From Morinoia aosen (taxonomy: Eukaryota > Arthropoda > Malacostraca > Amphipoda > Talitridae), in assembly GCA_030386875.1 (NCBI GenBank), contig CM059563.1:46158102-46222101 (forward strand): a stretch of 64,000 nt of DNA. The letters are read 5' to 3'. Shown here in pieces: positions 2,155-54,589 of this stretch (position 1 is its first letter; the number at the start of each line of letters is the position of its first letter). The translations under genes were made by a program, and so were the position numbers. The notes beneath the pieces are model-generated. The model saw nothing but the letters and a program-made list of their open reading frames with translations. It had not been told where the DNA came from and ran no database searches.

Positions 2155-2181
2155 ATATTATTATTATTATTATTATTATTT
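2155..2181. repeat. (TTA)n microsatellite at the DIRS left edge
   Basis: About eight TTA/ATT units in a row lie directly against the left end of the DIRS element. The microsatellite may be the insertion target or may have grown afterwards. Confidence 0.85.
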
Positions 2182-2255
2182 GAATTCTTCGGGCCTTGTC
2201 ATAAGCTAGGCCTAAAGTGAGAGACGATCGTCCGGGCACGTGGTTAGCAGTCAGT
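2182..2255 (+). repeat. DIRS left inverted terminal repeat
   Basis: This stretch starts with GAATTCTTCGG and runs to GGTTAGCAGTCAGT. It is the inverse of 6564-6637, apart from a diverged block in the middle where the two ends differ (CATAAGCTAGGCC here, CATTGCGTGGC on the right). The right end carries about 47 further bases not present on the left. Unequal ends of this kind are usual in DIRS elements. Confidence 0.85.
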
Positions 2256-2290
2256 GATTGAAAATAATCATAATTAAAAAATTTACTGAA

Positions 2291-3478: not shown

Positions 3479-3543
3479 AACAGGTTAGTTCTCCTGTAAA
3501 GACTTGTGGTTTCAATGCTGGCAATATTAAAAATTTTTCAAAG

Positions 3544-5523
3544 GTGTGGAGTACCTTAACGACAGATAAATTCATTATAGATCTTGTATCTGGTTGTGAA
3601 ATTGAATTTTCTGATAAAGTGCCCTTGCGTGTAATCCCTCCTAAAGAAATAGAATTTTCGATGAAAGAGTCCAAGCTTGTTGACGAAAAAATTAAAGAAT
3701 TCCTTAAAACGGGGGTAATTGAACCTGCTGTTCATTCTGCTTTTCAGTTTGTGTCCAAAATATTTACGCGTCCGAAACGCGATGGTGGGATCAGAATAAT
3801 TTTAGACCTTGCAGAATTAAATAAGTATGTAACTTACAAGAAATTTAAAATGGAAACTTTGCAAACCACTCTTGGTTTAATTGAGCAAGGAAATTTTCTG
3901 GCGTCGGTGGACTTAAAAAATGCATATTTTACTGTCCCTGTTGCTAATAGATTCAGGTGTTTTTTACGTTTCACCTGGATGAATCAGCTGTATCAGTTCG
4001 CGTGCTTACCGAATGGGCTCTCTTGTGCGCCCAGACTCTTCACGAAATTGTTGAAGCCGGTTTTTGCTTCATTACGGTCTCGAGGGTTTCTGTCAACGTA
4101 TTACCTGGATGATTCACTGTTGATTGGTACTTCTTATCAGGAGTGTTTGACTAATGTCGCATCGACCATTGAACTTTTTGAGAGTCTTGGGTTTGTGATC
4201 AATCATGATAAGTCAAATTTAATCCCTTCTCGAAATATTCAATTCTTAGGGTTTCGTATCGATACAGTCAACATGAAAGTTTATTTGACGGACGAGAAAA
4301 AAGTGAAGATTTATAATCAGTCACTCGAGCTTCATACTAAGTCTAGAATTAGCATTAGAGACTTGGCAATGTATATTGGATGCTTGGTATCTTGCTTTCC
4401 TGGAGTGCAGTTTGGAGCTCTCAACTATAGGTCTCTTGAGCAGAACAAAAACTTTGGGCTAAAACTAAGTCGAGGTGAATTTGATGCTTCTGTTGAACTA
4501 TCAGAAAACTCAAAAATTGATATAAGATGGTGGATTGAGAATGTGTTTAAATCTTTTTGTCCTATCAAGCATGAAGAGTTTAAAGTAGTGATATACACTG
4601 ACGCGAGTTCAAGCGGATGGGGGGTGTGCCGAGATGGTAATTGCGATGGTGGCCCATGGTCTGAGATTGATAGTTGCCTGCATATCAATGCACTTGAGAT
4701 GAAAGCAATCTTGAATGGGCTAAATAGTTCATGTAAAAATGAAAAGAATTGCCATATTCGAATTAAAAGCGATAACATGACAGCTATTCAATATATCAAT
4801 CATATGGGAGGTTTGAGTTCCCTCATTTGCAACAAGATTTCGAAAGAAATATGGAATTGGGCTATTAGAGGCAATATTTGGATATCGGCAGAATTTATTC
4901 AAGGCTCGGAAAATGTGCTAGCGGATAAAGCTAGTAGGGTATTTCATCACGCTACTGAATGGAGTATCCCTCAAGAAGTTTTCCAACAAATTACGGATTA
5001 TTTAGGTGTCCCAAATATTGACCTCTTTGCATCGAAACTAAACTTCAAACTTGAAAGTTATGTAGCATGGAAACCGGATCCTAATGCTATCTTCATAAAT
5101 GCCTTTAGTGAGAGTTGGAGTAAACTAAATTTTTATGCGTTTCCTCCTTTCAGCATGATCATGAAAACTCTGAAGAAGATAGTGGAGGAAAAAGCAGAAG
5201 GGATTGTAGTTGTCCCTCTCTGGCACACGCAAGCGTGGTTCCCGAAACTCCTGAGCCTATTGGTAATGCCTCCACTTCTTCTCCCCAAACATGTATTGAA
5301 ACTCCCTTTCTCGGAGAATCATCATGCTCTCCATTCTCAGATGAGACTGATTGGAGGTCGCGTATCAGGGGATTGTGCGAAAAGAGAGGCTTTTCGGAAG
5401 ACGTTACCAACACTATCATGTGCTCCTGGAGACCTTCAACCCATAAGCAGTACAAAACATATATTGGAAAGTGGATACGTTTCTGTATTTCAAGGAAAAT
5501 TGATCCCCTTGAATACAATTTGA
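3544..5523 (+). CDS. DIRS reverse transcriptase / RNase H polyprotein
   Basis: About 660 residues. The RT domain is clear: RPKRDGG near residue 76, ASVDLKNAYF near 120, LPNGLSCAPRLF near 155, and the catalytic YLDD at about 187-190. RNase H follows with YTDASSSGWG near 350, an E in INALEMKA near 383, SDNMTA near 409 and NVLADKASR near 458. The stretch from about 480 to 600 (DLFASKLN, YVAWKPDP, FYAFPPFSMI, VVPLWHTQAWF) is the part DIRS elements carry after RNase H, often described as methyltransferase-like. The enzyme would copy element RNA into DNA. The first codon given is GTG and the frame stays open upstream, so the true start is uncertain. The last 290 bases overlap the recombinase frame. 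Confidence 0.93.
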   Translation: MWSTLTTDKFIIDLVSGCEIEFSDKVPLRVIPPKEIEFSMKESKLVDEKIKEFLKTGVIEPAVHSAFQFVSKIFTRPKRDGGIRIILDLAELNKYVTYKKFKMETLQTTLGLIEQGNFLASVDLKNAYFTVPVANRFRCFLRFTWMNQLYQFACLPNGLSCAPRLFTKLLKPVFASLRSRGFLSTYYLDDSLLIGTSYQECLTNVASTIELFESLGFVINHDKSNLIPSRNIQFLGFRIDTVNMKVYLTDEKKVKIYNQSLELHTKSRISIRDLAMYIGCLVSCFPGVQFGALNYRSLEQNKNFGLKLSRGEFDASVELSENSKIDIRWWIENVFKSFCPIKHEEFKVVIYTDASSSGWGVCRDGNCDGGPWSEIDSCLHINALEMKAILNGLNSSCKNEKNCHIRIKSDNMTAIQYINHMGGLSSLICNKISKEIWNWAIRGNIWISAEFIQGSENVLADKASRVFHHATEWSIPQEVFQQITDYLGVPNIDLFASKLNFKLESYVAWKPDPNAIFINAFSESWSKLNFYAFPPFSMIMKTLKKIVEEKAEGIVVVPLWHTQAWFPKLLSLLVMPPLLLPKHVLKLPFSENHHALHSQMRLIGGRVSGDCAKREAFRKTLPTLSCAPGDLQPISSTKHILESGYVSVFQGKLIPLNTI

Positions 5524-6344
5524 ATTCTGTTCTGAATTTCTTGCAAAACTTGTTCAATGATGATGCAAGTTATAGCGCCGTCAACTCTGCGAGGTCGGCC
5601 TTATCAAACTTTATACTTCCGTTAAACGACATTAGTATCGGAGAGAACAAAATTGTGACGAGATTTATGAAAGGCATTTTCGAAAAATCTCCACTGAAGG
5701 CTAAATATGAAGTCATTTGGGATGCCAGTATTGTGCTGAATTATTTAAAAAACTTACATCCAATATGGGAGCTTGATCTTAAAACTCTAACGCACAAACT
5801 TGTTATGTTGCTGGCTCTCATTACGGCCCAGAGAGTACAAAGTTTGTCTCTGTTAAAAATAGACAAAATGAAACGGGGCGACTCTTCGATTTCATTTTTT
5901 ATCAAAAGTCATTTGAAACGTCACTCTCATCGGAATAATAGAAATAGAATAATAACTCTTAAATCATACAATGAACCTTCATTATGTGTATATAAAACTT
6001 TATCAGAATATCTCGAACGCACGAAGAAGCTCCGTAAGGGAGAAAATCAGATGTTAATAAGTTATCAAGCTCCTCATGCTAAAATTGGTACAAGCACCAT
6101 TAGTAGGTGGCTAAAGAAAGTTCTATATGAAAGTGGAGTGGATGTCGACTTCTATGGAGCACATAGTACCAGATCTGCCGCTGTTTCTAAAGTCTATAAT
6201 GAAATTGGGAACTTGGATAATGTACTCAAAACTGCAGGATGGAAGAATTGTGTGACATTCGCCACTTTCTACAACAAGCCCATCACGACTGATGAATTTG
6301 CCGAAATTGTTCTAAACTCGGGGCAAACATATAACTCTCTTTAA
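5235..6344 (+). CDS. DIRS tyrosine recombinase
   Basis: About 370 residues with a phage-integrase-type catalytic half. It has an N-terminal helical core-binding part (WRPSTHKQYKTYIGKWIRFC near residue 64), the first catalytic arginine in TAQRVQSLSL near 200, the box II HSTRSA near 308 and a tyrosine near 345 in TFYNKPI. In DIRS this enzyme is thought to join circular element DNA to the chromosome by site-specific-type recombination, instead of an integrase or endonuclease. The first codon listed is GTG and lies within the RT frame; DIRS recombinase frames commonly overlap this way, so the start is not settled. The stop lies two bases before the internal complementary region. Confidence 0.93.
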   Translation: MVPETPEPIGNASTSSPQTCIETPFLGESSCSPFSDETDWRSRIRGLCEKRGFSEDVTNTIMCSWRPSTHKQYKTYIGKWIRFCISRKIDPLEYNLNSVLNFLQNLFNDDASYSAVNSARSALSNFILPLNDISIGENKIVTRFMKGIFEKSPLKAKYEVIWDASIVLNYLKNLHPIWELDLKTLTHKLVMLLALITAQRVQSLSLLKIDKMKRGDSSISFFIKSHLKRHSHRNNRNRIITLKSYNEPSLCVYKTLSEYLERTKKLRKGENQMLISYQAPHAKIGTSTISRWLKKVLYESGVDVDFYGAHSTRSAAVSKVYNEIGNLDNVLKTAGWKNCVTFATFYNKPITTDEFAEIVLNSGQTYNSL

Positions 6345-6346
6345 AA

Positions 6347-6466
6347 TCTCACTTTAGGCCTAGCTTATGACAAGGCCCGAATAATTAGACAGTTAAACGA
6401 CACTTACCTGTAAGTGGATGTTTGACTTGAATTCTTCGGCGCCTTGTCATTGCGTGGCATAAAGTG
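6347..6466. repeat. DIRS internal complementary region
   Basis: 6347-6381 is the exact reverse complement of the left end (2188-2222), and 6382-6466 is the exact reverse complement of the right end (6600-6684). The two pieces meet as ...GGCCCGAA then TAATTAGAC..., which reads as the end-to-end junction of a circular form. This is the template structure DIRS elements use to restore their ends during copying. Confidence 0.9.
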
Positions 6467-6563
6467 CCCGCCCATGTTAATTTAAGAGAGTTATCAATTA
6501 TCACCCATCCCTGCTATGCCACGCAATGGAGTTATTATTTGCCCCGGACATCTAACTTTGAAG

Positions 6564-6684
6564 ACTGACTGCTAACCACGTGCCCGGACGATCGTCTCTC
6601 ACTTTATGCCACGCAATGACAAGGCGCCGAAGAATTCAAGTCAAACATCCACTTACAGGTAAGTGTCGTTTAACTGTCTAATTA
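6564..6684 (-). repeat. DIRS right inverted terminal repeat
   Basis: The inner part (6564-6637) is the inverse of the left end. The outer part (6638-6684, up to GTCTAATTA) occurs elsewhere only in the internal complementary region. The end carries CAGGTAAGT at about 6655-6663, matching a splice-donor consensus. Confidence 0.85.
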
Positions 6685-6750
6685 GTCTAGAACTCCATAG
6701 CTCCTTCAAAGGCGATCTCAAAAGACCGAAGAGTCCACTTAAAATGAACT

Positions 6751-22365: not shown

Positions 22366-22401
22366 CGTACAAACAAACAAACTTTAACATAAGATAAAGA
22401 G

Positions 22402-23175
22402 GTCAATGTTCAGCGCGATGCAATCAAAGGAAATGGGAATTTTATTCCAAAGAATCATTAAAGGAACCCATCTAAGAACGTTTTACATGAATGACATTCT
22501 GCTCTCTGATGCGTTATTTTTGAATTATTCGACTTTGAAATTAGCTTCCGCGTGCCAAAGGAAGCGAGTGCACCATCCAGAATTTCATTAATAACGGAAG
22601 TTAACCCCCATTACAAACGTAAAGAGGTTGGGTCGTGAGGGGTAGCCACAGTTCTTCTAGTGAGAATTATAAATGAAGGTTGAAAGCAACCCATTAAGGT
22701 CATGTTAACAATTGTGTTTACATCTGCTCCATGATGGCGGCGACCGTACCGGGTGGCGCCATCTATGAGCTGACTGTAAAGGTGACGACGTAATAATGAC
22801 AACTAAAAAAAAGTAAAAAGAACCAAATACGAGAAATAGTACGTTAACTTTTTTGTGTTATTAATTGAGAACAATATTTCTTATTATTTTATTAACAATT
22901 TCTATCATTCTTTTATTTCTACGAAGTTATGGTGAAAAATTTAACACCTCATGATCCGAACTTTGCCTTTCCCGACCCAACCTAGTCGTACTCTGTGTTC
23001 CACATTTTGCGCGGGAAAGCGATTTTACGTATAACTTCAAAGCTGAATAATTCATAAATAACGCATCAGAGAGCAGAATGTCATTCGTGTAAAACGTTCT
23101 TAAATGGGTTCCGTTGGCGATTCTTGGGAATAAAGTTCCCATTTCCTTCGATTGCATCACGCTGAACATTGACCG
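22402..23175. mobile_element. Foldback element FB-I, copy 1
   Basis: Arms 22402-22541 and 23030-23175 are inverse copies, with outer GTCAATGTTCAGCG / CGCTGAACATTGAC and inner CTGATGCGTTAT. The inner left part contains GTAAAGAGGTTGGGTCGTGA and the apex motif ATGATGGCGGCGACC (22731), both shared with copy 2; the matching right inner arm is much less similar. No transposase is encoded, so it is non-autonomous. Confidence 0.8.
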
Positions 23176-23417: not shown

Positions 23418-23969
23418 TTGGTAAATGTGTAGCGTTGGTCAGTAATCGATTTTCCACTTTTTGGTGTCCAATCGTAGTTAATTAGATCGAAATGAACAAG
23501 CTTTCTTCTATGCACTTTCCGTCGTAAATGAATATTTTACAGGTTATAGCGGTAAATTACTGACCGCAACTCCAGTGTTTGAAGCGGAAAGTAATTCAAG
23601 CAGCACGTTGGACGGCAACACTGTAATGCCGTCTCACTTCCAGCCCGATCGTCATCAAGGCGAAACCAAACCCACCGCTATACCTCGTTAAATACTCATT
23701 TGACGAAAAAAGTGTATAGATAAAAAGTTGTTTATTTTGATGTTATTACCATGATTCAAGCAAGAAAATTTCAAAAATCGATGAGTAGCTGTTTATTCGA
23801 GCGCATTCGTCATCAAAGACGAAACTAAATCTACCGCCATAACTCGTTAAATACTCATTTGAGATGGAAAGTGCATAGAAGAGAAATTGTTTATTTAGAT
23901 CTAATTACCTATTTATAGGCACCGAAAAGTGGAAAATCGATTACTGACCAACGCTACACATTTACCAAG
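23418..23969. mobile_element. Foldback element FB-II
   Basis: The terminal inverted repeat TTGGTAAATGTGTAGCGTTG (23418) / inverse ending 23969 is almost perfect for about 50 bp, and weaker similarity extends the arms to about 150 bp. The interior has a direct duplication of about 95 bp (23661-23755 and 23811-23905) around CTCGTTAAATACTCATTTGA. No open frame is present. It lies between two FB-I copies. Confidence 0.8.
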
Positions 23970-24713: not shown

Positions 24714-25404
24714 AAAATTTCGGTCAATGTGAAGTTTCATGCAATCACGGAAATTGATAATGATATTCCAAACAATCACTAAAGGAACCCATTTAAGAAC
24801 GTTTTTCAAGGACGACATTTTGCTCGCTGATGCGTTATTTTCGAATTATTGAACTTTGAAGTTGGCCGTCGCGCGCCCAAGGAAGCGAGCGTAATTTAAT
24901 TAAAAACGGAAGCTAACCCCCTATTACAAACGTAAAGAGGTTGGGTCGTGAGGGGTAGCCACAGTTCTTTTAGTGAAAAGTATAAATAAAGCTTCTAAAC
25001 CACCCATTAGGATGACGACCGCAATCTTGTTTACATCGGGTCTAACATGGCGACCACCATGGGCGCCGCCATTTTGGACCCGATGTCAACAAGATTGCGG
25101 TCGTCACCCTAATGGGTGGGTTAGAAGCTTTATTTATAATTTTCACTAGAAGAACTGTGCCTCCCCCTCACGACCCAACCTCTTTACGTTTGTAATAGCT
25201 TCCGTTATTAATTAAATTACGTTTCACGCGCTCGCTTCCTTTGGCGCCAAGGCCAACTTCAAAGTTCAATTATTCGAAAATAACGCATCAGCGAGCAGAA
25301 TGTCATTCTTGTAAAACGTTCTGAAATGTGTTCCTTTAGTGATTCCTGGGATCGGCATTATTATTTTCCGTGATTGCATGAAACTTCACATTGACCAAAA
25401 TTTC
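24714..25404. mobile_element. Foldback element FB-I, copy 2, nearly perfect hairpin
   Basis: The left arm (24714 to about 25055) and right arm (about 25065-25404) are inverse copies for roughly 340 bp with few differences. Outer ends read GGTCAATGTGAAGTTTCATG and its complement; inner parts share GAGGTTGGGTCGTGAGGGG, and CATCGGGTC / GACCCGATG close the apex. The apex contains GCCGCCATTTTGG (25065-25077), a YY1-like motif. Nothing is encoded. Such palindromic MITEs can yield long double-stranded RNA hairpins when transcribed. Confidence 0.9.
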
Positions 25405-27329
25405 GAACTGCAAACCTTTCAATTCAGAAGATCGGTCGACGAGCAGAACGCGTAGTTTCGTTGCCGATTCAGACGTATATTTGCTGCGAAGATTATTCTC
25501 CAGATGTTTAAATTATTCCTCGAAGTTGACAAAGCGTCGACGATGAGCTTGGATTGACTCGGAGAAGCTCGGTAAGACTTTGGTATTGACTTGCGCACGG
25601 TCGCCTAGCTGGATGGTAATCCTTGCTAGACGGTATTTATGACTTATTGGAACTAGTAGCAGTTAGGATTCCTAGCTAATTTATTCCGCCTGGCTGGCTG
25701 GTATTCAGAACTTTCTTCACGGGTAGGTACTAATCTTAGAGAATAAGACTGGTTCCCAGTTACACTATCACTAAAATTGAACGCGTGCACCGAGGAGAAA
25801 CTGTAGCAGTCATCACTATACCGACAATAAGAAGAACTACACCAACACACTCGACGTCACTGGAACGTTAGTTTCTGCATTCGCCAGGCCTATCGAAATT
25901 GCGCCCCTCGAAAATTACGTTCCACTTGTCATAATAAGAAAGATTGCTAAAAAATCAAGTGAGTTCTCACAGAATCATACACGCAATATTTGAAACGTTT
26001 GAAATACGACACTGGTTTTCGAAAAAAAAGGAAGGCGAGTAAATTTATCTGCTACGTGATCAGAGTTAGAGATCTTGCAGCGCACAACCTATGAACAATT
26101 TTTTTAAAGTTGCCGGAACTTTAGTTTTCTTGTACTTCAACTTCAAACTTCAAGATATTAATATGTTGACAGGAGAACCGAGAAGAAAGTACGCACGCAC
26201 TCGCATAAATTTATCACAAGTTGACTAGAACATAAATTTTTACCCTTTGGCTTCGAGGAAATAAAACCAGAAAATAGCTATTGAGGGGAATGGGTCAGTG
26301 TACTTTTAGCACATCTCTTTTCACTTTAAAGCTGCACACGAACACTTACGAATAAGTTTCAAAAGAATAAGACATCATTACAGGGTAACGGAACACTTCA
26401 TTTACTGCTAACACTGACACATGAAATCAGCACTGCACTGGAATTTTCTACAAGAACCACTGCACTGCTTCTCAAAAAGCCTCACTGCAGTGCATTCCTC
26501 TACGGGCTGGACACGATGACGCAACGCATCAGTAACGCACTACCGCCCTCCGGCACAGCTTTCGCAGAACTGAGGGATGCTGCATGGAAGCTGCCAATCT
26601 GAGGGATCCCCTCCTGGCCTGTATCTCCCTCCCTCTTTTTATACCTTTTTCGGAGAGCATCTTTTTCTCAAATTTTGCGGCTTTTCCTCCTGGTCGTGGC
26701 AGCATGATTTACCGAATTTCGATGAATTAATTTCGTTTCATTTTAGTGTGGTTTTCAAAGCTTGTTTCACCGAAAACTTTCACTTGGCAAGTTAGCAATA
26801 CCTGTTTACGTAGGGAAAAAACAAAACGCAAACTGCCGAGGTTCAGGAAATTTCCCGTAAGTTTTTAAATTGTTTGCTGTTTAAAATTGAGCTTGGAATT
26901 TTCTTTTCGTGTATTATGAAATTGTTTCACATGTTGAACTTTTATACTTATTTTTCAGTTTTTCCACATTGGCAAGGTTTTAGTCCTGTTTTTTCCCATT
27001 TTTACGCAATCGCACCGATAAAAAATAAACTGGCCATTGGGTTGCATAAACATTTGATTTGAAGTTGAAAAACTTTTATTTCCATTATCATTTCATGCAA
27101 AGGTTGAAATTCGATTTTTGCTATCAACATTTAATTTCGGTGACGAATATTTCCCATACTTAATTTTGCACGCAGAGGTGAATTCCAGTTTCTACTAGAA
27201 ATTTAAAGAACATGTTTGGTAAGTTTCCCATGTGCGGTATTTTATCTCTCATGCCGAGGTAGAACGTCGTTTTCTGCCCAATTTATATCACCTATTTGGT
27301 CGATTTCACGTGTATTGTGATTACCTTAC
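25405..27329. other. No recognisable gene
   Basis: 25587-25610 has TGCGCACGGTCGCC, similar to the piggyBac-like end at 16539, but without the TTAA. Short open frames at 25653, 26577 and 26874 have no motifs. A somewhat GC-richer patch at 26440-26600 does not resolve into an exon. Confidence 0.4.
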
Positions 27330-27720
27330 CATTCACAGGATGAATCCGGTACTTTTGCAACAAAAAAATTATTATTAACTTCAAGTAAGTGGCCATTCAC
27401 AGGATGAATCTGGTACTTATGCAACAAAAAAAAATTATAATTAACTTCAAGTAAGTGGCCATTCAGAGGATGAATCTGGTACTTTTGCAACAAAAAAAAT
27501 TATAATTAACTTCAAGTAAGTGGCCATTCAGAGGATGAATCTGGTACTTTTGCAACAAAAAAAATTATAATTAACTTCAAGTAAGTGGCCATTCAAAGGA
27601 TGAATTTGGTATCTTTTGCAACATATATAACCATGATTAACTTCGCGTAAGTAGACATTAAGAGGATGAAATGGTATCTTTTGCAAGATATACAAAATAA
27701 GATTAACTTCACACAAGTGG
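27330..27720 (+). repeat. Minisatellite, six units of about 64 bp
   Basis: Units start near 27330, 27393, 27459, 27523, 27589 and 27653. Each has CCATTCA(C/G)AGGATGAAT, GGTACTTTTGCAAC, an A-run and TTAACTTCAAGTAAGTGG. The first four or five are close to identical and the last two are diverged, giving a gradient along the array. Confidence 0.9.
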
Positions 27721-29619: not shown

Positions 29620-31130
29620 CTAAAAAACTACATATTAAGCTCCTCATAGATATCCCTTGGCTTTGCTGTAATCAACGCACTGTGCGATAACAAATACGAT
29701 ATTTACTTTACGCTTCCTTCTGTTAAAGGAACACTGGCTTTCAACTTTCGCTTACGATATTTTGATTTTGCGAGAGTCTCATTTTCGAGTTTAGGTTTTG
29801 CACAAAACAATTGCCGCAACCGCAAAGCTTTAAAAGAAAAATTGCGCAGAATAATGCCCAGCTGCTCGCTAGCGAGCGCCACCCACGGAAACCGCCGCAT
29901 AAAATCGTCCAAAAGCCCGCACGGAAGGTTCATTAAGGGGCTGGAATATTTATGCGTGCGCTCTCATCAACACAATTAAAGAAATTATTTATTCACGGGT
30001 TTTGCTCGTTGCGTTCATTTCACGAATACTTTCGGCTTCGATGTAGCTCAACCCTCGTATTATAAATTAGAGATCGATTGCAACGTACTCATGTGAACCA
30101 AGTAGTATAGGTGAGGTTTAGTAATTGATGAGCTTATTCAATTTTTTTTTCTGTAGGGCATGGCTGTTTTTTACGAACACAAATTTGGAGCATTCAAGCT
30201 AATAATGGGCGATTTTTAGGTAGATAAAAATTTTCCTTCAGTTTCATAGGCTGAATGATAAGCTACACTGTTCTATGTTCTATTAATTATAATCTGGCGC
30301 TCTATTATAAATGAACCGAAATGAAAAGTTGATTATAATGAGTAAACAAACCACGGTATTGACGGTAAATTCGAGCGACTGAAAACATCGTTCTTTTGCG
30401 TTCTTTTTTCATCGTTCCATCACATTCCACCTGTACTGCATGGAGGGAACACAAATCCTTCCTTGCGGCTGTACGGAAATTCCTTCGATGCTTCATTAAT
30501 TAAGCACATATGGACCGAAATAGAAGATTTGAACTCGTAAAACTTTGCAAATATGGGCTAGAAATACTAAACGTACTTGCAATAATTGCACGTGTAACAA
30601 TGGTTCGAGCGTAAAAGAGTTTAGTAAATACGTTTCTGATCTAAACAAGCGGAAAACTAACAACTTCTGAAATTGAACAATACGAATCGTGAAAAAATTG
30701 AAGTATAATTTTTATTTTTTGACTTTATGAATCTAATTATTGTCCAACTAAATTTAAGGGAGCTTTAAATGTTCATTTTATTAAAATATGCAAGGCCAAG
30801 AGAGAGTCAATAAATTATTATTTTGTTCCTCTAAGGCCCCGCGTGAGAATAGAATTGAACTATTCATGGCCAACCCGAACAACGTTAACTTGTTTGAAGT
30901 ACTTCATTCACAGTTTGAGTGTTTGAAATTTGAGTTGTATTGCAAATACTGTGTGCGTACCGCCGTAACAAATATTTCTAGATCTGATCTCCCTCATTCT
31001 CAAAGTTTCAAGCACGGACGGAAATAACATCGATGCTAATATTTTGTGTTTTATAACCTTTGGATTGATCGAAGTGTTTATTGAAAATTGCGCCGGTCAA
31101 TTTTTACTTCAGTACGCTCATGGAATTTAA
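29620..31130. other. No recognisable gene
   Basis: AT-rich. The reverse-strand frame 29703-29933 is basic and spans a slightly GC-richer patch near 29850-29935, but shows no family motif. Nothing else is supported. Confidence 0.4.
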
Positions 31131-31137
31131 AAATTTA

Positions 31138-31600
31138 GTTCTCTATAATCACTAATGGAGCACATTTAAAAACGTTTTACATAAATGACATATTGCTCGC
31201 TGATGCGTAATTTCCAAGCTATTCAACTTTGAAGTTATAAGAGCGTCGTATATGAAAGTGATGAAACGGACACACAAATATGCTATAATACGGTATTGAG
31301 GTAACGATAGTTGAGGTTAGGTGATGTTAAGTTAATAAACTAAGCTAAACAAACCTGAAATAACTTAACATTACTTAGCCTTACCGAGGCTGCTGTTCTG
31401 CCGCCAAGATTGTGTGCGTGTTTCAACAATGCAGTGATTACGCAACCGACTATATAATGTTATTCCTACCTGAACGTTATTAATGTTATGTCTCGAAAAT
31501 TACGCATTAGCGAGCAAAATGTTATTCATGTAAAACGTCTTCAAATGAGTTCTTTTATCGATTCTTGGGAACAAAATTACTAAAATCTTTTGAGCGCATT
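31138..31600. mobile_element. Foldback element FB-I, copy 3
   Basis: The left arm (31138-31255) has AATCACTAATGGAGCACATT and GCTCGCTGATGCGTAATTT. The right arm (31492-31600) carries their inverse (AATTACGCATTAGCGAGC, ATGAGTTCTTTTATCGATT). Both match the arms of FB-I copies 1 and 2 but are more diverged, and the loop is different sequence with its own short inverted repeat (AGGTTAGGTGATGTTAAG). Confidence 0.75.
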
Positions 31601-31677
31601 AGAGTAAAATTTGACCTTTGAGCCTCCCATCGCAAATTGGAGAAGTTGAGCGCCGCGGACTAGCACGTTGCTTGTGA

Positions 31678-36250: not shown

Positions 36251-36257
36251 GTTTTTT

Positions 36258-36393
36258 GAAAAGCATACAGAAAACTAGAACTCCATGATGATTATCCCAA
36301 GTTCTAGTTTTTTTGAACAGCATACAGAAAACTAGAACTTGAGAGAATCTTCATATTCTAGTTTTCTGTATGCAGTTCAAAAACTAGAACTTA
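36258..36393. repeat. Inverted repeat cluster
   Basis: AGCATACAGAAAACTAGAAC occurs at 36262 and 36320 and again, inverted, at 36356-36380. The last two, with flanking TTCTAGTTTTTTTGAAC, form a hairpin with arms of about 37 bp and an 18-nt loop. Confidence 0.85.
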
Positions 36394-36926
36394 AGAAAAT
36401 CTCCATGAAGGCTCATCAGTTGTTCCAAATCAAGTTCATCAGAAACCGTTGGGTAAAATGTCTGACAGCGATCAATAGAATATAGTCTCTAAATAACAGC
36501 GCAACCATAAATGATTGAGTGTTACGCTCATTGTAACTTCATATAGACCTGTAAAATAAAAACATTTTGTTTAAATCTGCCTCGTGGAGACGAACAACTC
36601 ACAGCAACGCTGCTTCATTGAGAATTTGCATTCAGTTCACAATTCGATGAAGATGATCATTCTTGTCTCTATCTCTCACATAGCACTTGCATTCAGCGGT
36701 CGACACATGAACTTCCACTTCATCTCGACGTTCATCCATCACAGAAAGTTTTCTGATGAAGTTGGCCGGAAAAGATCAAAACTCATTAGAGCTCAAAGAC
36801 GAGAACCTCTCCGGGCCTGATGGAGCAAAGACAAGGGATACATAGCAGCTTTGCCCTAGCTAGTCAACCTCCTGCTTCAATTAGGGAATACGCTAGATTT
36901 TCTGAGCTTCGTAAATTTCGTTACAG
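36394..36926. other. No firm gene
   Basis: The frame 36584-36820 contains an internal MKMIILVSISHIALAFS that reads like a secretion signal, followed by basic residues to a stop. There is no family match and no clear splice site, so it is not called. Confidence 0.3.
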
Positions 36927-38000: not shown

Positions 38001-38271
38001 CTAAGTAAGTACGGCTCAACAGAACCGGCAAGTAAGTAAGTACGTACGGCTCAACTGAACCGGCAAGTAAGTAAGTACGGCTCAACAGAACCGGCAAGTA
38101 AGTAAGTACGGCTCAACTGAACCGGCAAGTAAGTAGGTACGGCTCAACAGAACCGGCAAGTAAGTAAGTACGGCTCAACTGAACCGGCAAGTAAGTAAGT
38201 ACGTACGGCTCAACTGAACCGGCAAGTAAGTAAGTACGTACAGCTCAACTGAACCGGTAAGTAAGTAAGTA
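38001..38271 (+). repeat. Minisatellite, about 31-bp unit, eight copies
   Basis: ACGGCTCAAC(A/T)GAACCGGCAA recurs eight times, separated by AGTAAGTAAGT runs of variable length (extra GTAC blocks in some units). Unit lengths vary between about 30 and 36 bp. A and T alternate at one position between units, which suggests a higher-order pattern. Confidence 0.92.
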
Positions 38272-42504: not shown

Positions 42505-42745
42505 TCTGTGAATTCGTCATATGCTTGTTGCTGACATCGAAAAGTGTTATGAATTTATTCGTCCAAATCAAATGGAATTTATCGTACAATAAACCACTAT
42601 ATCGTACAATCATCGTCTCTTAATTAAACGAATTACTCCACCATTCGTGTTTACTTCATACAAGAACAATATTTTTCTCAAAATACGAGTATCAAACTTG
42701 AACAAAGTATTGCAAAAAACGAAATAGAACAAAAATAGTCGCACC
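42505..42745 (+). repeat. Dispersed repeat C, copy 1
   Basis: It aligns with 48497-48735, sharing TATGCTTGTT, CATTCGTCCAAA-like, CATTCGTGTTTACTT and AACAATATTTTTCTCA blocks in the same order. Class unknown. It contains an extra ATCGTACAAT duplication. Confidence 0.7.
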
Positions 42746-43844
42746 TGTTTCGATCGCTTTGCAGAGATTTATGAACTCTATCCCTACTAATATCAGGTTT
42801 TAGCTAGTTTCAGTCTAATTTCTCTAGAATACATATAAAACCCTCAATATCGTGACTTATTCTAACTACGGGAATTTATCCTTCACAAGAACGTTCACAA
42901 CGGCGAGGAAAATTTAGTCTTTGGTTTCATTCCGATTTTGTTGCTGCATTTTAATTAATTTACCCACTTTAACAATAGTTAATATTCTACGAGTGGTGAA
43001 GATTTGTTCGACCACAAATGCTCAAAGATCAATTTTGGAAGCTTTAGTTTCTGAACGGTCACTCCCTCGGCAATTCCCGGAAGCTCTGGAATACAATCGT
43101 AACCCACTAAAGACACAACACTTCGAGGGGCAAAAGTCCTGAAATTTTCTTGTCCCGGCGCGGCGCGCTAAGTGGGTATGCTAATGGGCCGGCAGAGCGG
43201 ATCACTGATTTTAGAATCATTGAGGAAATCGCTTCAATTGAAATTCAGCGACATGTTCCTCAAGTTTTGGGGCCACGTCCAATACTGCGATGATAGTTGC
43301 AGAGTTGCAAACGAAATCAGACTGCGTGCATAAAAAACTTATTCTTAATGAAATGAGGCAATAACACGAGGAGCAAAGTTAGATGTTCTGTTCTCTAAAT
43401 TCCTTAGTTTAACAACAGAAATTCTGTTTTGATGTTCAGATCTTTCGCGACTATATTTTTCTCTGGAGGAACACATAATGAGCACAATTAATTTTTCTTA
43501 GTAATGGACGTTAACAATGGTACATATTTAAGCTTAAGAAAGAGAGGTTGACATTGCAAAAATATACAGTCTGTCTAATTAATATTTGATACATGGTCCT
43601 ATACAGAAAATATCCTGTTCACGGTACACAATTGGAAAATAATTGCAAATTTAACATCTTGTGTAATTTTGTACGCTGAGTACCAATTCGGTATTTAGAA
43701 TTCACAAACAGTAAACTGATACCACACAAAATATCAAATGATCCTTGCGAAAAATATTCACTACATCAATCAGAAGCAAATATTATTTGGTGGCTAGACC
43801 TTTCTCTGCCCTCGTACAGTGTCAGGCTATTGTCAGAGATGCCG
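42746..43844. other. No recognisable gene
   Basis: A short GC-rich run GGCGCGGCGCGC lies near 43155. The frame 42921-43142 is unrecognised. Confidence 0.4.
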
Positions 43845-43854
43845 ACTACAGCTT

Positions 43855-44091
43855 TTTAACTTTAATTTTAAAAAGTTCAAGTTCAATTCAAAAAAGCTCA
43901 AGTTTAATTTAAAAAAGGTCAAGTTCAATTTAAAAAAGCTCAAGTTCAATTTAACAAAGCTCAATTTTAATTTAAAAAAGATCAAGTTTAATTTAAAAAA
44001 AAATCAAGTTTAATTTAAAAAAGCTGAAGTTTACTTTAAAATAGATCAAGTTTAATTTAAAAAGATCAAGTTTAATTGAAAAAGTCTCAAG
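43855..44091 (+). repeat. 21-bp repeat array, left arm
   Basis: Ten to eleven units of AAAAAGCTCAAGTTTAATTT plus one A, with GCTC varying to GGTC, GATC or GTTC. The 21-bp period is seven codons, which is why 43819-44013 stays open and reads as KKLKFNL heptads; that frame is not a gene. Confidence 0.92.
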
Positions 44092-44775
44092 CAGACTATA
44101 TTTAGAAAAAGGTCATTTTCAATTTTGAAAAGCTTATGTTTCTAAAATTGCATACTTAAGTAATAATGATAGTATAATTAAAGTTTATTCACGAGAATGC
44201 ATATTCATTTAAAAGTACTGGCACTGAAAATAGAGTAAATCGAATATCAGACAAACCAAGCTGCTGTAATTTTGTACTCAATTTGACATTCTTTAAGTTT
44301 TACCTATGAATCATTTGCTAAACAGGTCATCGGTACTTTCAACTATTGACAAAAATGGTTCGAATAAACTTCATGTAATAAGTAACTGTAGGACAATTAG
44401 CAAACTGCACTGACTGAAAAATTGAACATTACTGAGCTTCAACTTTTCAGTCAGTGCATATTGCTAATTGTCCCACAGTTACTTATTGAATAAAGCTTAT
44501 TTGCATTATTTTGGTCAATAGAAATAAGAACCGATGATCTGTTTAGCAAATGATTAATAGGTAAAACTTGAAGAATGCCAAATTAAGTCCATCACAGCAG
44601 CTTGCCTTGTCTGATATTCGATTTACTCTATTTTCAGGGCCAATACTTTTAAATTAATATGCCGTCTGACAAATAAACTTTACTTATATTATTATTACAT
44701 AAGTATGAAATTTTAGAAACATAAGCTTTTCAAAATTGAAATTCATCTTTTTTAAATGCTTAGAGACTTTTAAAT

Positions 44776-45146
44776 TAAAAAGCAAGGCGAAAATCGCTAC
44801 ACGTAAAGTCATTTTTATTACAAATGATCAAATAAAACTGAACGTTTCTAACTAACTGTCCATCTTCAGCAAGAAAATTTCTGTAAAACGAAAGCAAATA
44901 AGAGGAATCAAAGCACTAAAGTATTATATATACAAAATCTAAACTTTGAAAAAACACAAACAACGTTAAAAAAAATATGTAAAAGATAAAGGGAAAACTG
45001 AATTACGTATTGGCAACATGAAGCGGGAAAGCACTTTGGGTGTCATTGAGAGCAGGTTTAATTCTGTAAGTATACAAAGATTCGAGAAGGTGCAGATCTG
45101 TTCTGTAAGAGGTTTCATTCTCAAGCTGAGAAGCATCAATGATGGA
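44776..45146 (-). mobile_element. Penelope-like element fragment (3' part)
   Basis: On the reverse strand 45003-45143 reads as the end of a Penelope-like protein (LHLLESLYTYRIKPALN, then QSAFPLHV and a stop). This matches the C-terminal end of the GIY-YIG endonuclease domain. About 130 bp beyond lies TGAAGATGG...GAAACGTTCAG (44838-44870), a hammerhead-like motif as found in the untranslated parts of these elements. ACTTTTAAATTAAA before and ACTTTTTAAATTAAA after the fragment may be a target duplication or just array units. Only the element tail is present. Confidence 0.75.
44838..44870 (-). ncRNA. Hammerhead-like motif in the Penelope-like fragment
   Basis: On the reverse strand CTGAAGATGG leads into a degenerate helix and GAAACGTTCAG. 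CTGA and TCAG can close the structure. The core deviates from the active consensus, so it is probably a relic. Confidence 0.4.
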
Positions 45147-45404
45147 CTTTTTAAATTAAACTTGATCTTTTTTAAATTAAACTTGAGCTTTTTTAAATTG
45201 ACCTTGAACTTTTTTAAATTTAACTTGAGCTTTTTTAATTTGAACTTGACCTTTTTTAAATTAAACTTGAGCTTTTTTAAATTAAACTTGACCTTTTTTA
45301 AATTTAATTTAACTTGGCCTTTTTTAAATTAAACATGAGCTTTTTTAAAGTGAACTTGAGCTTTTTTAAATTGAACTTGAGCTTTTTTAAATTTAAGTTA
45401 AAAA
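45147..45404 (-). repeat. 21-bp repeat array, right arm
   Basis: About twelve units, the inverse of the left array (CTTTTTTAAATTAAACTTGA on the + strand), with one 11-bp expansion near 45300. The forward frame 45018-45332 (FFKLNLS heptads) is produced by the period and is not a gene. Confidence 0.92.
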
Positions 45405-45412
45405 GCTGTAGT

Positions 45413-46283
45413 GCCTTGTAATTTCGCAAGAGGAAAAATAATTCTCTCGCAAATAATCGAACTGGCGTATCACAGATACTCGCGAACCATATACCCGTCT
45501 CAGATTTCAAAATTTCAAGAGCTTGATTTTTATATCGGCTCAAATTTCGCAGCTCGAATTTCATTTCGGCTCTAACTTTCGACGCCTGCATTACTAGCGT
45601 GAAAAGCTCGTAGCTTATTCATCTCGACTCAAATTTCGAAAGCTTGAAAACCAGCTCAAATCTTCAAACCTTGTAACCCGATCGGACCCCGAAAATTACT
45701 GAATAATATTCGCAACTTGGAAACTGTTGAAAATCCCTCGCCTTAATAAAATAAATACTCAGCAACTGACTTCTCTCATATCCCTGAAAAATCAGGAAGA
45801 TTCTCCGGAATAAAAGCCTTGGAACTTACGGCCCTCAGAACCCTAAAATAGGGAAACTATCTAACTTTTGGCGCCCAAGACGATACAGCCTAACTAAAAT
45901 ATCCAACATACAGCTTTCCTCATTTGTGATGTTTACTTAAAAATTTCTTGCAAATATTTACTTGCAAACTGATAGGAATTATATATAATTAGTGTACACG
46001 ACCCATCATAAATGATGGGATTCGATATTTTTTTAAAACAAAAATCTATCCCCTCACCAATATATTTCTATTTGACACCGCAACCATCCAACTGTTTAGT
46101 TCTGATATAAGGTTCCGTTATAATATGTACATGCATCGGTCAGTGGATACATTTTTTTTAGACATCCTATATATTAATCCTAAGAGTGTCCGCAAATAAA
46201 ATATTAAGTCACTTGTGTACACTTGTGAAACTCGCATCACAGATACAGTCATTAAGCATCCTTATGAGCATGCCAGAGAAACG
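45413..46283. other. No recognisable gene
   Basis: AT-rich. 45500-45680 has repeated CTCAAATTTCG(A/C) and AGCTTG phrases suggesting a very degenerate short repeat. Nothing coding. Confidence 0.4.
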
Positions 46284-46349
46284 GAATCTGGTACGGGAAG
46301 CTGCTGCTTCCACAAGGTTGTGGAAGCAGCAGCTTCCCGTACCAGATTC
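46284..46349. repeat. Perfect 32-bp hairpin
   Basis: 46284-46315 (GAATCTGGTACGGGAAGCTG onward) is the exact inverse of 46318-46349, with a 2-base loop (GG). The right half is also the start of the tandem unit that follows. Confidence 0.95.
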
Positions 46350-46485
46350 ATTAACTGTTTCTGGGGGGTGACTTGACTATGAGCTCTCGATACATAAGGG
46401 AATAAAATATATCTGTCGGGCCAAGCGTGTGCCTGCTTTCACTGTGCCACAAGCATTGCTTTCGTTGTGCTTTGATCACCTTTTA

Positions 46486-46556
46486 GGGTGGTCGATAGCG
46501 CGGTCGATAGCTTGCCGGCGCGGTGATTTATTGTCCTGAGTTCGAGTCTCGGAACT
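46486..46556 (+). repeat. tRNA-derived SINE-like sequence, copy 1
   Basis: It has an A-box-like TAGCGCGGTCGA and a T-arm CTGAG-TTCGAGT-CTCGG with a 5-bp stem and 7-base loop (B box GTTCGAGTC). The acceptor and anticodon stems do not pair well, so it is a tRNA-derived repeat and not a working tRNA gene. It could still serve as a Pol III promoter. Confidence 0.65.
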
Positions 46557-46752
46557 CCTCGTACATTTATTTGTTAGAAAAACCTTGTAGAAGCAGCAGC
46601 TTCCTGTACCAGATTCATAAAATGTTTCTGGGGGTGACTTGACTATGAGCTCTCGATACATAAGGGAATAAAATATATCTGTCGGGCCAAGCGTGTGCCT
46701 GCTTTCACTTTGCCACAAGCATTGCTTTCGTTGTGCTTCGATCACCTTTTAG

Positions 46753-46823
46753 GGTGGTCGATAGCGCGGTCGATAGCGTGCCGGCGCGTTGATTTATAGT
46801 CCTGAGTTCGAGTCTCGGAACTC
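46753..46823 (+). repeat. tRNA-derived SINE-like sequence, copy 2
   Basis: The same as copy 1 in the second tandem unit, with a few substitutions (TAGCGTGCC for TAGCTTGCC). The A and B boxes are retained. Confidence 0.65.
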
Positions 46824-46836
46824 CTCGTACATTTTC

Positions 46837-48496: not shown

Positions 48497-48735
48497 TTGA
48501 CATCTGGAAAATTTGTGGTATGCTTGTTTCTGACCCTGAAAAGTATTAAGCATTCATTCGTCCAAACCAAAGAGAATTTACCGTACAATGAACCATCTTC
48601 GTGTCTTAATTTAACGAATTACTCTACCATTCGTGTTTACTTTATACAGGAACAATATTTTTCTCAGAGAGCAATTATCAAACTTGAAAAAAGCATTGGA
48701 AAACACATAAGAGAAGAAAAATAGCCTTACCTTTC
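48497..48735 (+). repeat. Dispersed repeat C, copy 2
   Basis: The partner of 42505-42745, in the same orientation, diverged by perhaps a fifth of positions. Confidence 0.7.
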
Positions 48736-50591
48736 ACGAACACTTTCTAATGACTTTCGAACCAGAACCCTAGTTCATATAATTACACCTATTCAGCAAG
48801 AACGAAGACCACAAAGCATATAGAGTACTTGGGCGAAAATTTCAAAGAATTTTCGTCATCTTTTTTGAGAAGTAACAGATCAATCCGTGGGAGCTCGGTG
48901 CATCGCGTGATGAATTTGAGCAATTTTACGAAAGGCTTCCGAGCAGAAGTTCGGAGCACATTCGATCGACCTCGCGATTGGATGCTATGAAATGTGTCAG
49001 AAGGCTCCATTGGTTCAAAGTTTTCTGCAAAGCCCATGAGAAGTCGTCTGTCAATGTTAATCAACGAAAGGACATCTTTCAGACATCTGGACAAGTTCAT
49101 CAAAACAAATTCGGAAGTTCTCGGTAAAATTTAAATTTATCAATATCTTCGAGGTGAGTTTTCTTTTGGAGTTGGAGTGGTTGGTGAATTACTCTGATGA
49201 CTGAATAAGACGGTCATGACCTCGTCTTCGAGCTACCTCATCCTGTCGGAGGTGAAGTTTGTTTCAGTGAGGCTTTGATGAATGACTTTTGAAGGCCGAG
49301 TTCGGAAGCTGATATTTTTACAACTACTCAATTTTAATGGAACTATCAGGAAATGTAAAATGACAGCCTTGTGGTGTATGGACAGTTACAGATATGGAAT
49401 AAATAACTCCTACTACTACTGCGACATTACGTGTATAATTACGTGAGAGAACTCTTAGTAGGAAAGTCATGGATAAGTTGTGAATGGATGCTCGATGTCT
49501 AGGAAATGGGAGAAATCGCCGTTACGACACATAAACCGAATGGTTTCATCGTACGTACGAAGTTTTTTTACCAATGCATAAACAGTAAGTGAAAAATACA
49601 TGTTGATTCATATTCGTGGAATAAAGTTTTAAATGAAATGAAACTGTCTCTTGAGTTACGCACCAAAAGCTTGAAGCCCCTCATGCCATCATTGTTCGTC
49701 CAGAAACGTACGTTCCTCTAAACACACACACACGCGCACACACACACAAAAAAAACAAATAAATTGCTGAGTGTCATCGGGAAAAAAACTCCACGTAAAC
49801 CATTCCTGCAACTCTTATTCAGTGCAATTTGTTACAATTGATTTAACTAAAAGATACATTGGTAAATTAATTTTTCTATCACTTATGCCGTAAAAGAGAG
49901 CAGTAAAAGAGTCCCCTCCATGCATCAATGTTGGTTTTACCTGTGTCCTTTAATATTATTGTTACTGCTGCAACTTTTAATTTCCATACCATATTGCCAG
50001 TAGATTAGGTGTGTAGTTTATTTTCAGCAGCCAAAGTTGAATTCCTAAACTAACGCAGTTTTTTCTGAAGAAGAAATTTACAGTATGGGGAAGAAAAATT
50101 TTACTGATCGACGTCGATTAATCGACGTCTTTAAGTCATGTTGCCTTCGGAAAAATTATAACTGAGGGAGAAGCTCCTTTGAAAAAAAATAACCAAAATT
50201 ATTGACAATTATGAAATTAGAGAAACGTTCCATTTAGTGAAAAATAGGAAACCAAAAGAAAGAAAGCCTAAAGTAAAGCCTGCTGATGTTGGTACAGAAA
50301 GACGAATTGCAGTTTTACTCTTGAATAATTAGTAAATACCTATGCGTAATTGTTTCTGCATTACGATTTCATAATTAATGATGGGAGTTCTTATAACTGA
50401 CGGCGTTGGGTTTTTGGTCTCAGAAAATCGCAAAAAAGAGACGCAGTCTTCGCTTAATGAGCAACATCTGAGTAACAAACTGTTACTGGCTGGGTGTTAA
50501 TTTCTATGTATTTTTCACTAACACTAGGCAACGTTGCCTCATTTTCTCGCCTAGATGTGGCACCATTTTGAGGTTTAATTTATCAGGGAAA
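48736..50591. other. No firm gene; CA microsatellite and a palindrome
   Basis: A CA/CG dinucleotide run lies at 49720-49748. A perfect 20-bp palindrome GACGTCGATTAATCGACGTC lies at 50110-50129. The reverse frame 48789-49103 (104 residues) has no motif. A donor-like CGAGGTGAGTT near 49150 has no coding stretch before it. Confidence 0.4.
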
Positions 50592-51290: not shown

Positions 51291-53014
51291 CGAGGCTCCA
51301 CATTGTTTCTGACAAACGTAATTATTGACGAAGGTGATGCAATATGGAATGAAATTATGTTAAAAATGGTGCTAGGTATCATATGCACAGAAAAATTTAA
51401 TTAGTGCTGGTATGAAAAACCATCACGTATCCAGGAAGACAATAAATGCATCGTTCAGACCTGAAATATTATTGTTATCAGACATGAACTATTTCATAAA
51501 ATATAATTTCATGAGGGACATGAAACATAATTTGGGAGTCCACACTAGTAATACACGGGCTGCGCATAGGCAGGACAGGCTTCTGGTGTAATGTCACTTA
51601 GATCATGTGATATTTTGACCTCTGGGTGCGAAGAACTTCAAGAGATAAAGGTTGTGGATGCGCTATATTTAGCGTTCATTCTGTTTATTTTGTGAAACAT
51701 TTAATACGCTCGATGATCTCAGTATTTTTTCAGGTGTTTATCAATACCATCCAAGTACCTTAATTATTTTCGAACATACTAAATGAAGCTTATCTATCAA
51801 TTTTTAATCACTAAAAGCTTCGAAACAATTTACTTCTCATTTTTCAATAATATATCAAACTAGCCTTCAATCCTTCACTGCATGAGCTTATTAAACACGC
51901 AAGAATATTTTCTGGAAAAGGTAATTGAATGCCTCTTTTGCTGCATGAATATTTCATGTTCACATCGAAAAATGCGAATGTGCTGAACGTTAAACGTAGA
52001 GAAAATTCAAGCCATTCAATTTCAAAAGAGGTTTAATCTAATAGAAATGTTTTTCAGTTGCACCTGTAGGATTCTCTAATTAAAAGCAGAATATCTCGTA
52101 CGCATTTATTAGTTTTATCGTGAAACGTTCGAATTACTTCGAAAGGTAAATTCTTTCAGAGAAGCAACTTTCTTTTATCGAGTAATAGAAATTCATATTT
52201 GACATGATACTCGTACTTGAGGGAGAAAGTCTTTGTTTATTTGAGCTAGATATCAGTAAAAATTATTCTGTTGAATCATTTTAAGTACCTATTATGATGA
52301 CATAAATTTCCCTTAAGTTATGTATTTCGAATTCCTACGTGCCATATAAAATTGGATGCAAGACTCAATTCTCCAAACAATCTTTCAGAAATATCTAACT
52401 CAAACTCCTCGCCAGGCCGCAACCGTGCACCAACGCATCTCCCATATCATCTTTGTTATGAAAACCGAAGGTGCCTGCAACCAACATATTTTCTTTTATT
52501 TCTACTGGAAGCAGCAATGAAGCAAAACTCCCACTAAATGTTCGACACTGCCAGACCAATAACACCATCACCATCCACCTGCCGGAGTCTAAGAAACCGT
52601 CGAGTGTTTTCTAAGGGAGTATTTTTTCGCGTACGCGGCACGATCGCACGGCTAAAAGGGCAATCATGCCACACGAAGAGCTGTGCCCTCAAGCTAACAC
52701 TACAGCAACGCCTCCTGAAGCGCGGAAGCCGTGGCTTCAAGCGAGCAAATTAAAGAGACAGCTTTAGAGGAGGTGCTCTGGGGCTCACTGCAAGCTGAAT
52801 ACAAATGCACTGACTTCTTACCCAACTGATAAAGTAACGGGGGAAATTAAGTAAGCTTCCTCGGGAGGTATGTGTGACATGTCAGATGGCAATGGGATAT
52901 AGCTTCTACATAGATTATTTTAAGAAAGATAATCGAACTTAAACTTTGTTTTCCTTTAGCTAAGATAATCAACATTAGTTCTTCAAATAGGTGAACTGGA
53001 ATGCCTGTCAAAAA
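51291..53014. other. No firm gene
   Basis: AT-rich to 52340. 52540-52760 is GC-richer and open on both strands (52538-52753 forward, 52534-52740 reverse) but neither product is recognised. Confidence 0.4.
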
Positions 53015-54266
53015 CAAGGTAACCAAAAATGTTCTGTCCGCTTTTGAAGGAAAAAAGAAAAGCTTCCCATTATGTGTAATTCATATTGAGTTTTTGAAGT
53101 AGTCACAATCGACATCCAGCACCTTCTGCCAACGTGTCTCCAGCTCTTCAATCTCCTTGCGGTAAAACTGGAGGGTTTTGAACTCAAAGAAGTTCTTTAG
53201 GGCTTGGCGCAAGTCTGCTTGTTGGTGAAGAATTTCCCACGAAGCTGATTATCCAGGGAGTTGAAGAGATGGTAATCGGATTGCGCAAAGTCAGGTTAAA
53301 AATGTGGATGGCACAAAGTCTCCCACCAAATTGCAGTATGGTATCTCTGACCACTCGCGACACACGGCCTGGGCTTGTCATGGAGGAAAAAGCAAACCTT
53401 CGCGATTCATCAGTGCTGCCTCCTTCTGGCGTAATTGCCTGTTGCACACGATCCAGCTGCTGTGAGTATAAGTCTCCAGGGACCATTTGGCCCGTTCGTA
53501 GCAGCTCATAATGAACCACTTGACGACCTGTCCTCCAGATACAAAGCACCATTTTATGTGAGTGCGTAGGCGGTCTTGCAGTGCTAGGGACAGCATCCTG
53601 AGGTGACAACCAATGTCTGGAACGTTTGGGAGTTTCGTACAGAACCCACTTTTTATCTCTGGTAAGCACTCGATTGAACAAGGATGCAGTACGGTGGCGA
53701 AAAAGCAGCGATACGCCGGCTGCCATTCTATGTCTCTCGTGGGCTCCAACAACGTGTACGGAACCCATGCAGTTGCTCAGTTTGTACGCCTTACCTAGGA
53801 AGTGCAAGTGAAGCCTAACGGTTTCATCAGAAACGTTGAGCTGTTTTGCAAGTTCAGCGCACGTTAGACTACTATCCTGTTCAATGGCCGCATTCAGGAC
53901 TTCGTCATTCGAGACCTGTGGTCATCCACTGCGAGGCTCATCACGGAGGGACAAATCTCCCGGCTTGAATTTTTTAAACAAGTGCCTTGTTGCACGTTCA
54001 TTCACAGAACTATTCTCAAACGCTTGACATATGCGGCGACTTGATGCAGCTGTTGATAAGCCCACTTTGAAGTCGAAAAGCAGACAGCCAGAACGAGATC
54101 TGTAGACACTTCCCTCCTTTTTCACTGCTGTCGGCTTATAACTTATGGCCAAGCACGGTGTGCGTGTTTTTGTTACGTCTGATGATGCTACTTTCGGCTG
54201 TCCGAATCCGAAAATAATTGTTACATACATTGCGTGTATACTTCAACTTCATTTTTGGTAACCTTG
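53015..54266 (-). mobile_element. mariner transposon, broken copy
   Basis: The inverted ends CAAGGT(A/T)ACCAAAAATG lie at 53015-53031 and 54250-54266. TA follows directly on the right (54267-54268), while the left neighbour is AA, so the TA duplication is damaged on one side. The 1.25-kb length is normal for mariner. One transposase remnant fills it in reverse orientation. Confidence 0.9.
53060..54230 (-). pseudogene. mariner transposase pseudogene (DD34D type)
   Basis: It reads from about 54230 downward. The N-terminal DNA-binding region has ICQAFENSSVNERATRHLFK and FKPGDLSLRDEPRSG, followed by a TGA (near 53919-53921) where the family has arginine (a CGA to TGA change). The same frame resumes with the second helix-turn-helix and HFLGKAYKLSN. 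The catalytic part has the first D in LTRDKKWVLYE, then a frameshift near 53390. In the new frame come HDKPRP (family HDNARPH, second D) and PDFAQSDYHLF (third D), with a TAA in the C-terminal part. So all three aspartates remain, but at least two stops and one frameshift make it inactive. The terminal repeats would allow mobilisation only by a related enzyme. Confidence 0.88.
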
Positions 54267-54589
54267 TATCACATTTACCTACGCAGTATTGACTTCTTTT
54301 TATAAAAAAACTGAAAGTGGGAAATGTGCACGAATATCAGAAAGGCTTATTGTGTTTTCTTCACTGACTTGGAATAATTAATTTTTATCTGTAATGAGAG
54401 TAAAGAAAAAGAGAGTCAAAGTTACGGTGACGAAAATAAAACAGTGTGAGATGCACTCAATATAATAACACGCTGTAAACAGCTTGACAGAAATAACCTG
54501 ATGAGAATAAGCGAAGGGGAAAGAGGTTTAGCGAATACGTTAATAAATCTTGAGGATTAACTTAGGGTGGAATTCTAAGTTTTAGTGGA
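54267..54589. other. No recognisable gene
   Basis: AT-rich flank of the mariner copy. Confidence 0.4.

Follow-up and report, generated by a model that had tools for sequence, protein, structure and literature searches.

A palindromic stretch with mirrored 21 bp arrays as a probable foldback-type DNA transposon copy

Positions 43845–45412 of the stretch of genomic DNA analysed here (64 kb in all, referred to below as the window) form one large palindrome, and the question that this locus raises is whether the palindrome came to its present position as a mobile element or arose in place from host sequence. We favour the first answer: the stretch is probably a single foldback-type DNA transposon copy, old and non-coding, of the 'two-TIR' kind and mobilized in trans, a reading to which we give a probability of about 0.78. 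The observations that count most for this reading are the exact 18 bp inverted tips located outside the arrays and the mirrored arrays and palindromic core, which stand far above shuffled sequence. Counted against it are the single known copy and the lack of a convincing target duplication.

The stretch consists of inverted tips, two mirrored arrays, a unique core with a central loop and a secondary insertion. The left tip (ACTACAGCTTTTTAACTT, residing at 43845–43862 on the plus strand) matches the reverse complement of the right tip (45395–45412, minus strand) at 18 of 18 positions, in agreement with a preliminary description in which the outer 18 bp were regarded as inverted ends. A search of the 64 kb window with the tip 14-mer TACAGCTTTTTAAC, allowing up to two mismatches, returned only the two tips. 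The tip displays a weak likeness to the reversed array unit, and 212 of 5000 shuffled tips score equally high. The arrays are built from a unit of ∼21 bp in opposite orientations and were delimited by TRF and unit cutting as 11 units on the left (43859–44088, plus strand) and 12 units on the right (45145–45398, minus strand). TRF reports a period of 21 on both sides, as had been proposed, with 11.0 copies and 84% matches on the left (43861–44091) and 11.5 copies and 86% matches on the right (45148–45393), and the self-identity at lag 21 is 0.77 and 0.83, respectively. When the units are cut against a consensus that we supplied (AAGTTTAATTTAAAAAAGCTC), 16 of the 23 are exactly 21 bp in length. 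Tips and arrays taken together are identical between the left and right sides at 215 of 239 positions, with 29 additional gap columns; a single unit and a 5-base insertion set the two arrays apart. Left and right do not share the order of their inner units beyond what shuffling produces: the observed score is reached by 1130, 2326 and 3019 of 5000 shuffles with three gap costs. With the first and last units included in the shuffling, only 27, 70 and 84 of 5000 do so. This weak test hints that the array ends stayed in place during turnover of the inner units.

The core, with a span of ∼695 bp (∼680 bp of unique inverted repeat in the preliminary description), contains a left arm (44085–44426, plus strand) and a right arm (44438–44779, minus strand) that pair as an inverted repeat around a central loop of 11 nt (44427–44437). 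The left arm is identical to the reverse complement of 44438–44780 at 286 of 335 aligned positions, with 15 gap columns, and blastn gives 82.5% over 725 columns for the same arms. The divergence of the core arms (K2P = 0.163) implies that the copy is old or that the arms were already different before arrival. The core does not contain an open reading frame of at least 110 codons; two listed frames of 120 codons at 44969–45329 pass through the insertion and the right array. With the insertion of 365 bp removed from the 1568 bp, the element has a length of 1203 bp and is made up of two long TIRs of ∼582 and ∼611 bp that meet at the 11 nt loop. Long TIRs with internal tandem repeats, the structural hallmark of a foldback-type DNA transposon, are present at 43845–45412. 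The best inverted match in 43500–45700 scores 710 bits, compared with a maximum of 50 and a mean of 30.5 in 100 dinucleotide shuffles. Folded as single-stranded DNA with the insertion in place, the 1568 nt reach −424.5 kcal/mol, compared with −155.3 kcal/mol (s.d. 7.9) for 12 shuffles. The length of 1203 bp agrees with the 1.2 kb given in the preliminary description for the stretch without the insertion.

The secondary insertion (∼365 bp, ∼44780–45144, minus strand) separates the right core arm from the array on that side and has no equivalent at the left mirror position. Direct comparison places a direct repeat of 15/16 bp on its two sides, GACTTTTAAATTAAA at 44765–44779 and GACTTTTTAAATTAAA at 45145–45160 (both on the plus strand). 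The left mirror position holds the junction only once, and the palindrome was therefore formed first and the element inserted later. A target duplication of 15/16 bp has the length that retroelements typically leave when they insert by target priming. The minus strand of the insertion contains a 46-codon open frame (45006–45143) followed by a stop, which may resemble the end of a Penelope-like protein; Pfam and PDB gave no support, with nothing above the cut-off in the former (best AcMNPV_P18, E = 0.047) and no match for this frame in the latter. A hammerhead, which was sought in connection with the Penelope-like idea, gave no match in a lax Rfam search (E up to 5) of 43600–45700.

The extreme ends bear on the question of the superfamily. 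Each tip contains TACAG, with a candidate target TA before CAG on the left (43847–43848) and after CTG on the right (45409–45410), an arrangement (TA-CAG...CTG-TA) that fits a Tc1/mariner end. The fit is weak, as a self-complementary TA within an inverted repeat necessarily recurs on the other side. Furthermore, the inverted repeat extends two bases past the TA (AC/GT; 1/16 by chance), whereas a TA-ended element should stop at TA. No target duplication of 7–10 bp was found at the element ends over offsets of −2 to +5, where the best matches are 3/7, 4/8, 4/9 and 5/10. Shorter flank matches over these offsets include CC/CC at offset −1, 3/4 at offset 0 and 4/6, the first two of which equal TA/TA in quality. 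A wider scan produced an 8 bp flank pair with 6/8 identities at offset 11, which was rejected as a by-product that sits inside the inverted repeat; TA/TA and the other offset-scan matches inside the inverted repeat are a consequence of self-complementarity. The missing 7–10 bp duplication speaks against Mutator and P, and we lean, tentatively and at somewhat less than even odds, towards a Tc1/mariner-like affiliation over a Mutator-like affiliation, which is unlikely.

No second copy of the 1568 bp stretch is present in the 64 kb window (only the self-match is returned at E = 1e-3). Exact tip, array and core patterns gave 0 matches in viral_contigs and genome_contigs, and blastn of the whole stretch gave 0 matches in phage and plasmid collections. 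All of these collections were designed for prokaryotes, viruses or plasmids rather than for eukaryotes, so the negative results carry little weight. Among the eight of 23 listed open reading frames of the window that were scanned against Pfam, none encodes a transposase with matching ends, and the only DNA transposase remnant found is a mariner at 53014–54267 with different ends (ACAAGGTAACC). Between its 18 bp inverted ends (ACAAGGTAACCAAAAATG, 94%), this remnant matches Transposase_1 on the minus strand.

The window also contains other palindromic elements. Three related foldback/MITE-like copies with ends GGTCAA/TTGACC are located at 22401–23174, 24722–25396 and 31095–31616, and have 8 bp flanking pairs that agree at 7/8, 8/8 and 6/8 positions, respectively; in the flank scan of the last copy, a 5 bp match inside the repeat outscored the 6/8 pair. 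The copy at 24722–25396 is palindromic over its entire 675 bp. A further palindromic element (23420–23966) has ends GGTAAATG and CATTTACC and a perfect 8 bp duplication (AAGATTTT, 8/8). These four flanked copies in two families show that palindromic elements move in the source genome. A blastn comparison of 43845–45412 with the other palindromes of the window returned only matches of 14 and 22 bp (E = 0.04 and 0.48). Palindromic elements are likewise known from Caenorhabditis elegans (Tc4 and Tc6), although these are not used as evidence here.

Foldback-type elements of such a design are already known. The architecture assigned to the locus in the preliminary description (inverted tips, mirrored arrays and a palindromic core) was recovered, but its restriction to a few families (FB and Galileo) is incorrect, with Tetris, Tm1, Muta1 and Mcmar as precedents. 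The cited account of Aedes aegypti describes the TIR of Muta1, a type 2 foldback in its authors' terms, as a terminal motif plus nine copies of 12 bp, and reports tandem-repeat TIRs in ten of 12 long-TIR Mutator-like families and many non-autonomous derivatives of Muta1 and these long-TIR elements (PMC5225508). The likeness to the present stretch is in the terminal motif followed by a short tandem array within the TIR. The Aedes elements differ in their 8–9 bp target duplication and 9–15 bp units, compared with no duplication found and 21 bp here, and the cited passages do not mention a palindromic unique core for them, whereas the core here is palindromic (PMC5225508). Tm1 of root-knot nematodes is described as having composite TIRs with 1–9 short tandem units that differ in number between the ends (PMC3169594), as do the 11 and 12 units here; its 9 bp target duplications, asymmetric 7 bp terminal motifs and units of mostly 14 bp, rather than 21 bp, set it apart.

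Galileo, a member of the P superfamily, has TIRs of 0.5–1.2 kb, some with tandem repeats, and its class 2T comprises copies that consist of two TIRs only, without transposase (PMC3688188, PMC3573991). By description, long TIRs with tandem repeats and two-TIR copies are features that it shares with 43845–45412, whereas its 7 bp target duplications and the ∼210 bp repeats of subfamily F, whose two ends hold different numbers of units, are set apart by description (PMC3688188, PMC3573991). The THAP domain of Galileo is reported to protect a site at +63 to +80 in the TIR (footprint) and, in EMSA, to bind sites that are present in two of the four direct repeats and missing from the other two (PMC3688188, PMC3573991). 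Tetris of Drosophila virilis is presented as a non-autonomous, non-coding foldback with tandem-repeat TIRs, like 43845–45412, but with repeats of ∼220 bp and target duplications of 8–10 bp (PMC4079207), compared with 21 bp and none found here. Mcmar of Meloidogyne chitwoodi is Tc1/mariner-like, with 355 bp TIRs of direct repeats and palindromes according to the Tm1 paper (PMC3169594); with these long repeat-built TIRs, compared by description only, it would be a precedent for the TA-CAG reading. The same paper also cites FARE and Tnr8 as tandem-repeat-TIR elements, and its authors point out that elements of this sort need not share a common ancestry (PMC3169594).

The known systems bear on an alternative in which the stretch is a Mutator-like foldback of the Phantom, Muta1, Tm1 or Tetris kind that has lost its 8–10 bp target duplication. 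Its layout is nearest to that of Muta1 as described, with a terminal motif and then a short-tandem-repeat array (PMC5225508), and the Tetris authors state that the majority of foldback elements appear Mutator-like (PMC4079207). Recombination can erase a duplication, as illustrated in the cited accounts by 12 chimeric Galileo copies whose flanks do not match; 11 of these are two-TIR copies (PMC3688188, PMC3573991). Against this, the best 8–9 bp flank match here is 4/8 or 4/9 over eight end offsets, and at a per-base identity of 85%, as in the arms, a match of 4/8 or less has a chance of ∼0.02 (hand calculation); the 21 bp unit is also outside the 9–15 bp reported for the Aedes families (PMC5225508). 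We consider this alternative unlikely. A different origin, by local inverted duplication, would have one stretch with a 21 bp minisatellite copied in inverted orientation, for example through a template switch over a short spacer, without any later movement. The single copy in the window, the lack of a target duplication, the 11 nt spacer and the similar identity in the core (286/335) and in the tips and arrays (215/239) would all agree with such an event, but the inverted match stops on both sides just beyond the array, at an exact 18 bp tip distinct from the array units, and the four other palindromes of the window, in two families with 8 bp flanking duplications, indicate that palindromes here tend to be mobile. 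We regard local duplication as improbable, more so than a Mutator-like origin.

The strong folding could also be the trait for which the locus was kept, as a host source of long hairpin RNA (a source of siRNA or a microRNA-like precursor). The lax Rfam search (E up to 5, 43600–45700) returned 14 matches, 13 of them to microRNA models, with 12 on the inner hairpin at 44316–44548. None of these matches reaches the gathering score of its family, and any good hairpin yields such matches; moreover, arms that have drifted to 85% and a right side split by an insertion are unlike preserved pairing. We regard this role as highly improbable. No Rfam family reaches its gathering score anywhere in the window, and no tRNA was found.

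On the preferred reading, a foldback-type transposon copy, the following mechanism is proposed. A transposase encoded elsewhere in the genome would bind the repeated 21 bp units, pair both ends and cut at the tips beside ACTACAGC, and the segment would have been moved by cut and paste. By analogy with Galileo, whose THAP binding data are the chief argument for this view, the arrays may represent repeated transposase-binding sites. Two turns of the DNA helix correspond to 21 bp, and a spacing of this length would place the bound proteins on one face of the DNA. The arrays would have gained or lost units through slippage or unequal exchange, which could explain why the unit number differs between the sides. 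The 365 bp segment inserted later, where the core meets the right array, and left its 15/16 bp target duplication. It is possible, although doubtful, that the copy represents an undescribed Tc1/mariner-type foldback family in which TA-CAG ends were expanded into same-face 21 bp arrays, with only the ends and the palindromic core left. A single undated copy by itself changes nothing in the field. If further copies exist, they would represent another independent origin of long, internally repeated ends, and the helix-phased 21 bp unit would lend itself to clean tests of the joint action of repeated transposase sites in foldback ends. In addition, long palindromes are known to give rise to rearrangements.

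Several other features were observed in the window. A DIRS-like retroelement (2180–6687) contains long frames with reverse transcriptase and tyrosine recombinase domains and a weak Dam methylase match below the cut-off; its inverted repeats are located at 6379–6466/6600–6687 (98.9%) and 2180–2255/6564–6639 (92%). The Pfam scan identified a second reverse transcriptase in the window. The DIRS-like element, the second reverse transcriptase and the mariner remnant lead us to infer that the window is eukaryotic. A direct repeat of 181 bp with 78% identity (42606–42786 and 48592–48772) flanks the region of the element. A near-perfect palindrome of 66 bp (46284–46349, 97%) overlaps a 266 bp unit repeated 1.9 times at 96% (46318–46834), and a hairpin-like inverted repeat of ACTAGAAC-type motifs is located at 36253–36410. 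Other tandem arrays are found at 38002–38271 (31 bp unit, 8.3 copies) and 27329–27711 (65 bp unit, 5.5 copies).
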